Source of the DNA: an uncultured Alphaproteobacteria bacterium
GTDB lineage: Bacteria > Pseudomonadota > Alphaproteobacteria > Caulobacterales > Caulobacteraceae
Length of the DNA: 64,000 nt
Reading direction: 5' to 3'
Assembly (NCBI GenBank): GCA_903860975.1
Contig: CAIOSI010000019.1
Coordinates: 1 to 64,000 of the forward strand
Numbering within the stretch: the first letter of the stretch is position 1; each line of letters opens with the position of its first letter. A model generated the notes under the pieces. The model worked only from the letters and a program-made list of their open reading frames with translations, was not told where the DNA came from and searched no databases. The position numbers and the translations under genes are program-made. Shown here one piece after another: positions 1 to 52,382 of this stretch.

Positions 1-394
<394 letters not shown>

Positions 395-1042: not shown

Positions 1043-1489
1043 ATGCTCTCGCAGAAGGCCAAATACGCGTTACGCGCCCTTGTGCAACTGACGCGCGCTC
1101 AGGGTGGCCAGCTGACGGCTGGCGAACTCGCTCTACAGGCGGGCGCACCGCGCAAATTTCTTGAAGCTATTCTGCGGGAGCTATCCCGCAATCGCCTCTT
1201 GACCAGCCGGCGTGGAAAGTTTGGCGGCTATGTCCTGGCGCGCTCTGCCTGCAAGATCAGTTTCGCCGAGGTAATCCGGGTGGTGGACGGCCCGCTCGCG
1301 CTCGCGCCCTGCGTCAGCCCGCGCTTAGGGTTCCGCAAGTGCGACGACTGCCCCGATCTTCAACTTTGCACCTTGCGCGAGGCGCTTTCGCGCGCCCGCG
1401 ATTCAACAGCCGAGGTGCTTGAGGCCTATTCGCTCGCCGAAGCTGCAGCCTCGACGGTTGAGTCTGTCGATCAACTCGCAGCGATATAG
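1043..1489 (+). CDS. Rrf2-family transcriptional regulator
   Basis: A 148-residue DNA-binding regulator of the Rrf2 family, which includes IscR, NsrR and CymR. The N-terminal winged helix opens with MLSQKAKYALRAL, typical of the family. Cysteines at about 90, 100, 103 and 109 form a C-x9-C-x2-C-x5-C cluster that could hold an iron-sulfur cluster, as in redox- or NO-sensing members; cluster binding is inferred. ATG at 1043 has a good ribosome site (TAGGAGG at 1031-1037). It is divergent from the rRNA operon, and its 3' end overlaps the convergent CBS gene by 19 bases. The target is unknown. A palindrome upstream of the sulfate operon at 26332 is a possible site for a protein of this class, but nothing ties it to this gene. 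Confidence 0.88.
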   Translation: MLSQKAKYALRALVQLTRAQGGQLTAGELALQAGAPRKFLEAILRELSRNRLLTSRRGKFGGYVLARSACKISFAEVIRVVDGPLALAPCVSPRLGFRKCDDCPDLQLCTLREALSRARDSTAEVLEAYSLAEAAASTVESVDQLAAI

Positions 1490-1899
1490 GCCTTCAGTCC
1501 GTCGGCTTCGGCTTCGACCTCAGAGATCTTCGACTTCACCAGGTCGCCAATAGAGACAATGCCTACCAGCCGATCTTTTTGGCAGACCGGCAGGTGGCGG
1601 ATACGTCGATCCGTCATTCGGGTCAGGAGCGAATCGACCGTCTCACCTGGTGCAGCAAACAACACGTCCTTGGTCATGACGGTTGATATCGCTCGCTCCA
1701 GCGCCGCAGCCCCGCCTTCGGCCAATGCGCGCACGACATCGCGTTCTGACACGATACCAACCACGCGTTCGGCCGCCAGGACGATGAGCGCGCCCACTTT
1801 CCTGGAGTGCAACAACGCCGCAATGGCTGCGATGGTCTCATCTGGCGATACGGTGAACACCGTATCGCCCTTGGATCGTAGAATCTGCGAGACAAGCAT
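1471..1899 (-). CDS. CBS-domain pair protein
   Basis: A 142-residue cytoplasmic protein consisting almost entirely of two CBS domains (about residues 8-62 and 72-130). Both show family signatures: VGIVSERDVVRAL in the first and RHLPV...LVGIVSIGDLV in the second. Such pairs bind adenosyl ligands (AMP, ATP or SAM) and act as energy-sensing modules. No catalytic domain is attached, so its partner is unknown. ATG at 1899 is preceded on the minus strand by GAGGAGCG, a good ribosome site. The next gene upstream on this strand is the broken phosphoesterase, whose 3' end lies 94 bases away. Confidence 0.88.
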   Translation of the reverse strand: MLVSQILRSKGDTVFTVSPDETIAAIAALLHSRKVGALIVLAAERVVGIVSERDVVRALAEGGAAALERAISTVMTKDVLFAAPGETVDSLLTRMTDRRIRHLPVCQKDRLVGIVSIGDLVKSKISEVEAEADGLKAYIAAS

Positions 1900-44818: not shown

Positions 44819-44965
44819 AACCCCAAAGGCTGACGGCCAGGCGGGCGCAGACGCGGAAAAATGCGCCAACCCGTACCGGTCGAAACGGCTCTCCACCGCT
44901 TCTGCTCGTCGCTCAGACGGAGTTCCGCGCCTCAGATTCCACTGATCCGAAGGCTCGAGCGACAC

Positions 44966-45163
44966 GCACCGACCGGTTTCCTGGCTCGCGGGTCGTCACG
45001 ACATACGCAGACCTTCCCGGGCCTATTCGCCCAGTGGCTGGAGGAGGCCAAAACCTTCCCCAATGCGTATGCGCTCGCCGCTCACAGTTGCAGGGACAGC
45101 CGCAGATCAGGCCCAGAAAACAGCCCTACTGCGTTCCCGATTAAGCCCGAAGGCATCGGTGCG
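44966..45163 (-). promoter_or_regulatory. Cobalamin riboswitch
   Basis: The minus strand carries the conserved cobalamin-aptamer blocks in order: AATCGGGAA (about 45130), GCAACTGTGAGCGGC (45091-45077), the B12 box GCCACTGG (45038-45031), GGGAAGG, and GACCCGCGAGCCAGGAAACC (44994-44975). When adenosylcobalamin binds, the btuB-F-C-D operon downstream is shut off. It acts through the hairpin at the btuB start. Confidence 0.95.
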
Positions 45164-45273
45164 CATTCTACACATCCACAATTACGCGCGGATGATCCAG
45201 GCCCGAACTGGGCCTCGGCGGTGCAGGGTGTGGCGCGGTTGTGGCCGCTTGTCCACGCCCATGGCTTGAAATT

Positions 45274-49855: not shown

Positions 49856-50164
49856 TGGTGCGGGCGGCCGGAATCGAACCGGCACGGGCTTACGCCCAAC
49901 GGATTTTCATCCCACTTCGGCTTTCGCCGCCGCGCCCGGAATGTTGGCGCGTTCGTGGTCTGGACTATCCCTTCACCGTGCGCCGGCGAAGCCGGCGGGT
50001 AGGTGCTGCCCGTCTAGTCTCTACACCTTCCCCCGAGGGGGCTTGGCTCGGGATTGCCATTTCACAGGGTTCCCCGACTTTGAGCAGTTCTACGTCTCGG
50101 ATTTCCCCGAGCGCACTCAATTTTTGGCTAAGTCCGTTGCGTCTACCAGTTCCGCCACGCCCGC
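49856..50164 (-). tRNA. tRNA-Leu(UAA), interrupted by a group I intron
   Basis: The 5' exon (50164-50130) begins GCGGGCGTGGCGGAACTGG and ends ACGGACTT; the 3' exon (49907-49856) reads AAAATCCGTTGGG..., has the T-loop GGTTCGATTCC, and ends in encoded CCA. Joined, the anticodon stem ACGGA/TCCGT encloses CTTAAAA, giving anticodon UAA between U34 and A35. Acceptor strands GCGGGCG/CGCCCGC pair perfectly and the long variable arm is typical of leucine tRNA. Ordinary tRNA searches would see only an odd half. It lies 45 bases past the stop of the unknown gene upstream, possibly co-transcribed. Confidence 0.93.
49908..50129 (-). other. Group I self-splicing intron inside tRNA-Leu(UAA)
   Basis: The 222-nt intron starts after a U and ends in G, as group I requires. 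The core is intact: GGCAATCCCGAGCCAAGCC (P/Q region, 50059-50041), GTAGAGACTAGACGGG (R, 50024-50009) and GGGATAGTCCAGACC (S, near 49960). GAGT in the intron pairs with exon ACTT with a U-G at the splice site (P1). GCGAAAGC forms a GNRA-capped stem, and a CCGGC-TTCG-CCGG-like stem caps another arm. Length and motif order match the tRNA-Leu(UAA) introns of cyanobacteria and plastids as I remember them. No homing endonuclease is present. Confidence 0.92.
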
Positions 50165-50209: not shown

Positions 50210-51301
50210 CTATGCGGCGGCGAGCGCAGGCGCATCACCGCTAAGGCCCGCTTCAAAATCCTGAAGAATGTCCAACAGCTCGCCAACCTGGGCTTCCAGA
50301 CGCTTACTTTTTGGAAATCGGTGCTGCCAAAATGAAGCGATGTGACAGATCATGCCCGCGCCTTCCCCGAGCTTGACCAGTAGGTCGGGCGACTTCAGCA
50401 GGAAATCGCGGAAAGCCGTTACGTCGCCACCGCACGTCAGCTCTGCAAACATCTCGTCATAATTTCGCAAATAGTTGGCGATCGACCTCACCTGGCGCTC
50501 AATTTTTTCCTGCAATCTGACCTTCATCGCCCGGATCAAGGACTCGTTTTCGAAGTCGCGCGGGCCCACGGTCTTGACCTTCAACAGTTCAATCAGCACC
50601 TCGCGCATCTGCGGCCACATACTGTTGAGCACCCACTTGTAATAGAGAAAGCCCTTCCAAGCGAAGATACCTTCGCGGTAACTGTCGCCCTCGAGGCGAA
50701 GGGTCAAGCGAAGCGGTTCGAGCCGCTCGTCATTACGGCTGGAGAGTAGCGCCTCAACCAAACGGCCGGTGTTGGCTTCGTTCACGGTGCGGCCCTTGTA
50801 GGCCAGATCGATCAGCTTGCCGAGCTCGCCGCCGACGAACTTCTGCATCATGGCGAGGTCGTTAACCGAAATCTCGAAGTGAGTTTCGGAGACATCGAAA
50901 CCCCGCCGCTTCATGTGCTCGCGCAGCAAAAACGGGTCGAGCGAGGGCAACTCGTCCAAAGCCTCCAGAACCTGGGCATCGCGCCCCAAATCAGCGGCAT
51001 CGCCCGCAACTTCCCTCAGGCATTCCATCCAGCCTCGATCGCCAACGAAGAAGGAGCGACCGCCAAGGCTGAGATTCGAGCGTTCAAATGGCACGATAAG
51101 TTTTGTGGCTGTGCGATTTGGCGTTGAGACCGTGGCGATCTCGTTGGCGCGCAGCCTGTGTTTAAGAATCACAGAGGCGTTCAACGCCGCAGATTTAAAA
51201 AGCGGCCTGGCTTGATGTTCCGGGTTTTCGGCGTGTTTGACCGCGAGCGCGGCCAAGTTCAGCACACGGCTGGTCGAAGCCGTACGCTCGAGCGCCCGCA
51301 T
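50210..51301 (-). CDS. Protein of unknown function, about 363 residues
   Basis: The start is ATG 51301 (MRALERTAS), with an in-frame TTG at 51322 as alternative. The protein is largely helical and charged, with no signal peptide or membrane segment. Recognisable stretches are EHMKRRGFDVSETHFEISVNDL (broken: EHMKRRGFDVSE, then THFEISVNDL), AWKGFLYYKWVLNSMWPQM and ERQVRSIANYLRNYDEMFAEL. I do not know the family. It may be a conserved cytoplasmic protein; its stop lies 45 bases upstream of the tRNA-Leu gene on the same strand. Confidence 0.7.
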   Translation of the reverse strand: MRALERTASTSRVLNLAALAVKHAENPEHQARPLFKSAALNASVILKHRLRANEIATVSTPNRTATKLIVPFERSNLSLGGRSFFVGDRGWMECLREVAGDAADLGRDAQVLEALDELPSLDPFLLREHMKRRGFDVSETHFEISVNDLAMMQKFVGGELGKLIDLAYKGRTVNEANTGRLVEALLSSRNDERLEPLRLTLRLEGDSYREGIFAWKGFLYYKWVLNSMWPQMREVLIELLKVKTVGPRDFENESLIRAMKVRLQEKIERQVRSIANYLRNYDEMFAELTCGGDVTAFRDFLLKSPDLLVKLGEGAGMICHIASFWQHRFPKSKRLEAQVGELLDILQDFEAGLSGDAPALAAA

Positions 51302-51614
51302 GCTCCGAAATGTCTCAGCCAACCCACTCGCTCCTTCGGGCGCTTGAATTGGAAAAGCCCGAGATACAATCGAGCCGCCACTGTGAAGCCCAAAGACGAA
51401 AGGACGATTAATTCACAAGATGCGCTCATCGAACGCGCCGTCTGTGGCGCATCGGTTGGGTCGCTTAAAGATCATCAATTCGAGACAGGGCGCGCACCTA
51501 TCCGTTGAGGCCAAGGCGTGCCGATTTCGAAGGGTGCTGATCGGCACGCCGGCACGTGGTAGCGATGAAAACGCGGACCTGCTTGGTCACTCAGTTGCCC
51601 GGCTGTGCCGCATG
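51302..51614. other. Intergenic gap
   Basis: The 313 bases between the unknown gene and the MoCF-domain gene contain no credible gene, RNA or repeat that I can see. The promoter of the unknown gene should lie at its left end. Confidence 0.35.
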
Positions 51615-52382
51615 TCAGGTGCTGACGGCGACTTCGCGCACATTTTGCACACCATCGGCCCTTAGTGCGGCCATCAATTCTTCAACGGTCGCGGCCAGCT
51701 CGTCGGGATCGCGCCCGCGCAGCACAAGGTTCGCGCCATAGCCGTCAGCGCCGAAGAACGGATAGCTTCCAAGCGACATCGCTGGATGCGCCTTAGCGAC
51801 CGCTTCAAGAGGCGCAGCGATCGCACCCTCGCCGGAGCCTTCGACACGCACAGTGCGCGAGACCGTGACCGCCCCGCCCTTCAGTCGGGGACCCACATCT
51901 TCGAGCATACCGCGCATGATCTGCGGCACGCCGGCAAGCACAAACACATTGCCGATGGTGAAGCCGGGCGGCCCCTGCACGGGGTTTTTTACCAGCTCGC
52001 CGCCAACCGGGACCCGGGCCATCCGTCGCCTTGCCGCGTTGAGTTCAGAGCCCCAACGCGTGGTCATCATGGCGATGATGTCGGGGTGCTCGTAGAGTTC
52101 GACACCAAACGCAGCAGCCACCGCGTCTGCCGTGATGTCGTCGTGGGTCGGCCCTATGCCCCCTGTGGTGACAACGTAGTCGTAACGCGCACGCAGGGCG
52201 TCCAAGGCCGCAATGATTTCCTCGTGCACGTCCGGTACGGTCCGGGCCTCTGCCAAGTCGACGCCGTGCACACCCAGGTACTTTGCGATGTCGCGCAGAT
52301 TGGTATCCTGGGTTCGCCCCGACAGTATCTCGTCGCCGATGATCAGCACCGCTGCGGTGACACGTTCTGGCAGGCCGGTCAT
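51615..52382 (-). CDS. MoCF-domain protein (CinA / molybdopterin-binding type)
   Basis: A 255-residue cytoplasmic protein. GDEILSGRTQDTNLRDIAKYL and VVTTGGIGPTHDDITADAVA are the MoaB/MogA/CinA nucleotide-binding motifs. It is the single-domain type lacking the CinA deamidase half, comparable to stand-alone proteins found widely in alphaproteobacteria. Function is uncertain; relatives act on molybdopterin or hydrolyse nucleotide-linked compounds. No molybdenum cofactor genes are adjacent. Confidence 0.87.
   Translation of the reverse strand: MTGLPERVTAAVLIIGDEILSGRTQDTNLRDIAKYLGVHGVDLAEARTVPDVHEEIIAALDALRARYDYVVTTGGIGPTHDDITADAVAAAFGVELYEHPDIIAMMTTRWGSELNAARRRMARVPVGGELVKNPVQGPPGFTIGNVFVLAGVPQIMRGMLEDVGPRLKGGAVTVSRTVRVEGSGEGAIAAPLEAVAKAHPAMSLGSYPFFGADGYGANLVLRGRDPDELAATVEELMAALRADGVQNVREVAVST

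Follow-up and report, generated by a model that had tools for sequence, protein, structure and literature searches.

A group I intron in the tRNA-Leu(UAA) gene of an alphaproteobacterium, and introns at the same site in other bacteria and in phages

The locus described here lies in a 64,000-nucleotide stretch of DNA from an uncultured bacterium of the Caulobacteraceae (contig CAIOSI010000019.1), called the window below. Its minus strand carries the two halves of a leucine tRNA, separated by 222 nt. Do these halves make up a functional tRNA-Leu(UAA) gene that a group I intron interrupts and, if so, to which other introns is the insertion related?

The split gene and its intron

Run with default settings, ARAGORN reported no tRNA gene across the 64-kb window. 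With introns permitted, it returned a single interrupted gene with the junction and the 222-nt intron given here. The features of the gene are as follows.

49856..50164, minus strand: tRNA-Leu(UAA) gene with intron and encoded CCA (309 nt, ARAGORN)
50130..50164, minus strand: 5' exon (35 nt), whose last base is U34 of the anticodon
49908..50129, minus strand: group I intron (222 nt) with a terminal G, identified by RF00028, ARAGORN and comparative fold
49856..49907, minus strand: 3' exon (52 nt), beginning AAAATCC, whose first base is A35
49948..50139, minus strand: match to RF00028 (Intron_gpI) over the whole model, 46.0 bits, E 1.4e-10 for 601 bases
50115..50120, minus strand: P1 guide strand, within the intron, paired to 50133-50130 of the exon and to intron bases 1 and 2
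50015..50019, minus strand: 5' strand of P7, GACTA
49963..49967, minus strand: 3' strand of P7, TAGTC, forming a pseudoknot with P3

The intron is thus inserted between U34 and A35 of the anticodon. When the exons were joined, ARAGORN recognized a tRNA-Leu(taa) of 87 nt, CCA included, whose variable arm is long. Comparison of the joined exons with 11 uninterrupted tRNA-Leu(UAA) genes gave 67-79 identical positions per 87-89. No ORF reaching 90 aa lies within the intron on the minus strand, and its 222 nt are too few to encode a homing endonuclease.

The RF00028 match is beyond chance. Its score is below the Rfam gathering score of 50, which is a curated cut-off and not a defining feature of group I introns, so that a default Rfam run stays silent on this intron. 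A preliminary description of this DNA, made from the letters alone, had called for a covariance-model search as a check; the search did return a significant match, at a score under the gathering value. As a single sequence, the intron folds moderately better than its shuffles (z -1.94, 2 of 100 shuffles being equally good).

The comparative fold test is much stronger. We aligned 28 introns, 27 from a search of the genus (the window's included) and one from another family (L042). RNAalifold proposed 64 pairs, 20 of which are changed on both sides. We then scored, with controls, a group I structure of 59 pairs including the P3/P7 pseudoknot, which was derived in part from the same alignment and is favoured by it. 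In this structure, 98.1% of the cells are paired, as against 89.9% in shuffled alignments; changes on both sides are seen in 20 pairs (12.0 in shuffles) and the covariation is 0.251 (0.105 in shuffles). None of 500 shuffles reached the observed value on any of the three measures, and versions of the structure slid along the alignment were only 30-48% paired.

Several conserved elements complete this picture. P1 sets U34 opposite a G in 28/28 aligned introns. The two strands of P7 pair in all 28 and are invariant, as is most of P3 and P4; these helices are consistent with the fold but lie outside what covariation can test. A GAAA loop closes P2 in all 28. The terminal G is also found in 28/28, a count to be read with the fact that the row-extraction script itself required that G. 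Taken together, the model gives the window's intron a complete predicted group I core, P3/P7 pseudoknot included.

The preliminary description holds on these points. It had proposed that a group I intron splits the tRNA-Leu(UAA) gene of an alphaproteobacterium at U34|A35, and ARAGORN, RF00028 and covariation now agree with this; its coordinates, 222-nt intron and 87-nt product are those obtained with ARAGORN on the joined exons; the U at the 5' splice site and the intron-terminal G that it pointed out are seen in the window, with the U-G found throughout the alignment. It had also expected routine tRNA finders to miss the gene, as default ARAGORN did.

The locus is therefore very probably a functional tRNA-Leu(UAA) gene that carries a compact, ORF-less group I intron. 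Guanosine-initiated splicing in two steps is established group I chemistry. Applied to this transcript, folding would pair the end of the 5' exon with the guide sequence of the intron, with U34 opposite G. A guanosine bound at P7 would cut after U34. In the second step, attack of the freed 5' exon behind the terminal G would link CUU to AAAA, which makes the anticodon loop whole. We infer that the intron is spliced in the cell, that no protein is needed for catalysis and that it arrived by intron spread at a fixed tRNA site.

The same gene and intron could require a protein helper for splicing in the cell. Such helpers are known for group I introns, according to the accessible part of a review (PMC3984707). 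We consider this requirement unlikely, since the window's intron is small with a complete core, and a related intron, that of tRNA-Arg(CCU), self-splices in vitro in the part of the study available (PMC7717549).

Relatives of the intron in bacteria

The preliminary description had considered an intron in tRNA-Leu(UAA) noteworthy in this lineage. This view does not stand. RF00028 matches were found in 27/100 genomes of the genus (own genome included), 0/100 above the Rfam cut-off. All 27 correspond to tRNA-Leu(UAA) with an intron of 206-245 nt at the same U34|A35 site. In a BLAST search of 60 genomes with the gene, full-length matches were obtained in 11/36 genomes of the genus, again counting its own, and in 1/24 others of the order. 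Uninterrupted tRNA-Leu(UAA) genes were observed in the seven congeners examined (L044, L046, L047, L049, L050, L051 and L053). Across the class, RF00028 was matched in 34/387 genomes, 16 of them above the cut-off, with hosts that are not all leucine tRNAs.

A search of named genomes with a pattern of the intron core gave at least 119 stretches. Among the 119 matches listed, 69 are tRNA-Leu(UAA) genes with the intron at U34|A35 under a strict rule, making this the commonest host gene among them. Five further listed matches (L170, L186, L191, L196 and L207) resemble tRNA-Leu(UAA) by eye and fail the strict rule. A looser test on the same 119 listed matches gave 13 tRNA-Arg(CCU), 11 CAU tRNAs and 9 uncalled hosts; these labels are less sure than the strict tRNA-Leu(UAA) calls. 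The hosts of the leucine introns among the matches listed include Caulobacter, Brevundimonas, Sphingomonas, Sphingobium, Rhizobium, Bradyrhizobium, Devosia, Reyranella, Carnimonas, Rhodoferax, Paraburkholderia and Acidobacteria. With each of ten decoys, the strict rule matched 0-1/119 bacterial, 0-3/121 viral and 0-2/27 genus sequences.

Other ways of calling the host gene were abandoned. A loose tRNA-Leu(UAA) test was dropped when single decoy motifs matched up to 41/119 bacterial and 57/121 viral core matches. The tallies of ARAGORN in intron mode were not used for counts, since the program gave wrong labels (Tyr, Phe, Ser) to many such genes, and joining every candidate splice site through ARAGORN was too noisy. 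The window's intron is real, is not rare in its lineage and is of a kind already known.

Which introns does it resemble? Over aligned bases, it is 94% identical to that of the congener G065, 90% to one from a Caulobacter, 88% to one from Sphingobium and 88% to one from an Acidobacteria MAG. Identity is 81-83% with two Methylobacterium tRNA-Arg(CCU) introns, 81% with a phage tRNA-Lys intron, 71-79% with four phage leucine introns and 72-77% with three CAU introns. In the control, where another intron was shuffled, the mean was 63% and the maximum 74%; two of the three CAU values are at or near this maximum, and the lowest identities are therefore no evidence of kinship by themselves. Sequence identity thus suggests that the window's intron is related to the proteobacterial tRNA-Arg(CCU) introns and, more distantly, to those of CAU tRNAs.

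The alphaproteobacterial tRNA-Arg(CCU) family, with members in Agrobacterium and Bartonella bacilliformis (BbgpI), is similar in size, lies in an anticodon loop and belongs to the same class as the window's intron. Its members are likewise hidden from default tRNA finders. In contrast, they occupy another tRNA, at a site after the anticodon, and their splicing is known by experiment, whereas the window's intron is known from sequence. The Bartonella intron splices in vivo and in vitro, as described in the accessible part of the study (PMC7717549). A paper on tRNAscan-SE 2.0 attributes the apparent absence of fMet or Ile2 genes from 36 genomes to group I introns; in the part available, the program is described as not designed to find such introns, and bacterial tRNAs with potential self-splicing introns were excluded from its training (PMC8450103).

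The Azoarcus-type betaproteobacterial tRNA-Ile(CAU) intron shares with the window's intron the core pattern used for searching; it differs in the tRNA and in the position. The Azoarcus intron belongs to class IC3 and has a GAAA loop in P2.

The cyanobacterial and plastid trnL intron interrupts the same tRNA-Leu(UAA), presumably also at U34|A35. We compared it by tRNA and site, and what links the window's intron to cyanobacteria is the shared site only. In the accessible part of one source, group I introns are assigned to cyanobacteria and a few alpha- and betaproteobacteria, with tRNA-Leu(UAA) as the host in cyanobacteria and plastids (PMC4033280). This common host gene would favour a reading of the window's intron as a transferred cyanobacterial trnL intron. 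We regard such a transfer as quite improbable in view of the identity to the two Methylobacterium tRNA-Arg(CCU) introns, which exceeds the shuffled maximum.

The chromosomal locus and UUA reading in the genome

The surroundings of the tRNA gene in the window are the following.

1-393, minus strand: 5' end of a 16S rRNA gene, cut by the window start
44954-45175, minus strand: cobalamin riboswitch, 91.8 bits
49365-49835, plus strand: truncated remnant of IstB (IS21 helper), profile positions 170-223 of 238, just past the tRNA 3' end
50210-51322, minus strand: ORF of 370 aa beside the tRNA, with no Pfam match
51615-52382: gene with a molybdopterin-binding domain, near the tRNA

Relatives of the molybdopterin-domain gene are found near the uninterrupted tRNA-Leu(UAA) of a congener (L049) and of members of other families (L043 and L052). 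This shared neighbourhood indicates that the intron sits in an apparently native chromosomal tRNA gene, and the locus looks like the native tRNA-Leu(UAA) locus. Could the whole tRNA gene instead have been imported by a phage or another element? Many phages do carry intron-bearing tRNA-Leu(UAA) genes, and the IstB remnant lies just past the 3' end of the gene. Against these two points, the neighbourhood common to the three uninterrupted loci makes an import very unlikely.

Two further observations concern such surroundings. A 75% identical relative of the 370-aa ORF also flanks an intron-bearing tRNA in L092. In other genomes, extra copies of the 5' half of tRNA-Leu were seen 0.15-1.7 kb from the intron-bearing gene (G051:C28:31872-31907, G006:C249:19086-19122 and G024:C1:1415021-1415056). 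ARAGORN found no intact tRNA at the extra copies in L042 and L032. They are perhaps traces of integrations.

The source genome is assembled in 53 contigs and tabulated as 99.95% complete. Among its 40 intact typed tRNA genes, the leucine isoacceptors are UAG, CAA, CAG and GAG only. BLAST of the gene against the genome returned itself and the tRNA-Leu(UAG) gene, and RF00028 gave one match. An intact tRNA-Leu(UAA) elsewhere in the genome, which the preliminary description had named as the finding that would speak against its reading, was thus sought among the typed tRNAs and by BLAST, and none was found in the 53-contig assembly. The typed set is also without Ile(GAU), Ala(UGC) and a third CAU tRNA. 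These probably belong to unassembled rRNA operons, as judged from the 16S fragment that ends the window at base 1. With these tRNAs missing from 53 contigs, a second tRNA-Leu(UAA) gene may be hidden in an assembly gap. In the window, 35 long ORFs called mechanically contain 1,640 leucine codons, 36 of them UUA. That the gene is dead, its intron no longer splicing and another tRNA-Leu(UAA) reading UUA, has the draft state of the assembly on its side and is nevertheless hardly credible, given the exons that form a perfect tRNA, the core conserved over 28 introns, the UUA codons in use and the absence of another such gene from the assembly.

Introns at the same site in phage tRNA genes

The core pattern matched at least 120 stretches in IMG/VR. 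Among the 121 viral core matches listed, the strict rule identifies 92 tRNA-Leu(UAA) genes that are likewise interrupted at U34|A35. Of these listed genes, 75 have the D-arm type of long-arm leucine tRNAs and 17 a short-arm scaffold. An ordinary tRNA lies within 1 kb in 82/92 listed viral loci, versus 2/69 listed bacterial ones, and the median GC content of the listed leucine loci is 36% for the viral and 63% for the bacterial set. Nearby tRNAs and low GC argue that most viral loci are phage tRNA arrays and not host flanks. Two of them with Burkholderia-like exons (L328 and L348) may be prophage flanks. In PHROGs, 11/20 proteins from eight viral loci were matched, including a baseplate hub, a tail protein, UvsX, a phage single-strand binding protein and a Dda-like helicase; nine matched nothing. 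Examples of intron-bearing phage tRNA-Leu(UAA) loci, within L248-L367, are L250, L251, L291, L302, L313, L314 and L322. In the viral contigs, such introns also occur in Lys, Arg(UCU) and CAU tRNAs.

Some individual phages illustrate these introns. Agrobacterium phage Atu_ph07 has a tRNA-Leu(UAA) with a 278-nt intron (RF00028, 48.9 bits), in a stretch whose annotation gives hypothetical proteins only. An intron of 205 nt interrupts the tRNA-Leu(UAA) of a 735-kb phage, LR756501. The tRNA-Leu(UAA) halves of a 595-kb phage, LR756511 (L372, at about 1865-2650), are 700 nt apart, as seen by eye and not by ARAGORN; the insert between them holds an ORF matching HNH (PF01844, E 4.7e-6). In Gordonia phage Daredevil, a 238-nt intron interrupts a predicted tRNA-Lys(UUU) near an integrase. 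A search of eight loci with Rfam listed RF00028 for L308, L314 and L322 and not for L369, L371, L372 and L374; on a short stretch, L374 gave 48.9 bits.

In L322, the intron-bearing tRNA-Leu(UAA) is followed directly by a gene for a predicted HNH endonuclease (1081-1725, plus strand). In 17 phage loci (L261, L302 and similar), the same intron is found in tRNAs with a UAA anticodon and a short variable arm. An uninterrupted short-arm tRNA with a UAA anticodon in Synechococcus phage S-SRM01 is similar by eye to the intron-bearing one of L302; the tRNA-Leu(UAA) genes of S-SRM01 and of Synechococcus phage DSL-LC02 are uninterrupted at the corresponding place.

Other core matches were set aside. Pelagibacter phage HTVC120P, an uncultured marine phage and two crAss-like phages have their cores between annotated protein genes, with no intron-bearing tRNA; none was found either at the core matches of Alteromonas phage AD45-P1 and Pseudoalteromonas phage pYD6-A. 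ARAGORN reported no tRNA in L370, L375, L376 and L379. Two adjacent CDS flank the core in L370 and in L375 (from Pelagibacter phage HTVC120P and from a marine phage); since each is annotated as capsid protein, the core looks as though it interrupts the capsid gene. An 18-base pattern for the core of cyanobacterial introns had 0 viral matches, which says little.

In the accessible part of a 2014 review by Hausner, the known phage group I introns, some with homing endonucleases, are placed in protein genes, although phages have tRNA genes too (PMC3984707). The introns described here are, in contrast, in phage tRNA genes. The word "intron" is absent from the main text of a paper on huge phages (PMC7162821) and from that of a paper on phage tRNAs (PMC10264068). 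Among the papers listed in our search of the open literature, outside which most subscription papers lie, there was no description of a proteobacterial tRNA-Leu(UAA) intron or of group I introns in phage tRNA genes.

Trees of the intron core were built on 129 columns, and most forks were left open. Betaproteobacterial CAU introns group with phage CAU introns (SH-aLRT 89 and 94), and leucine introns of Burkholderiales group with viral L328, L348 and L352 in nested sets (SH-aLRT 97, 90 and 100). No phage leucine intron was among the nearest rows of the window's intron in these trees. Several gains within the genus had been considered from the 7-9 changes of genus label in the core trees. This idea was dropped: six rows labelled as other bacteria are identical to genus rows, which inflates the count. 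With whole bacterial leucine introns (108 rows after removal of the six duplicates), a single genus clade is not rejected by the AU test (p 0.447).

It is plausible that phages are the source of the bacterial introns. More tentatively, a single pool of group I introns that target U34|A35 of tRNA-Leu(UAA) might circulate among phages and bacteria. The tRNA arrays of phages, including those of jumbo phages and at least one HNH-containing intron, would be the carriers that seed bacterial chromosomes, and the cyanobacterial and plastid trnL intron would possibly be one old branch. We hold this wider scheme to be possible, with the balance somewhat against it.

The same-site introns of phages, one of them with an endonuclease, would offer a concrete route for the spread of introns too small to move themselves. 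Their presence in tRNA genes contrasts with the placing of phage introns outside such genes in the accessible part of the 2014 review (PMC3984707). The tRNA-Leu(UAA) intron, usually told as a story of cyanobacteria and plastids, is widespread in other bacteria. Genomes that carry it appear to lack a UUA-reading tRNA, because default tRNA finders and the Rfam cut-off pass over the intron-bearing gene.
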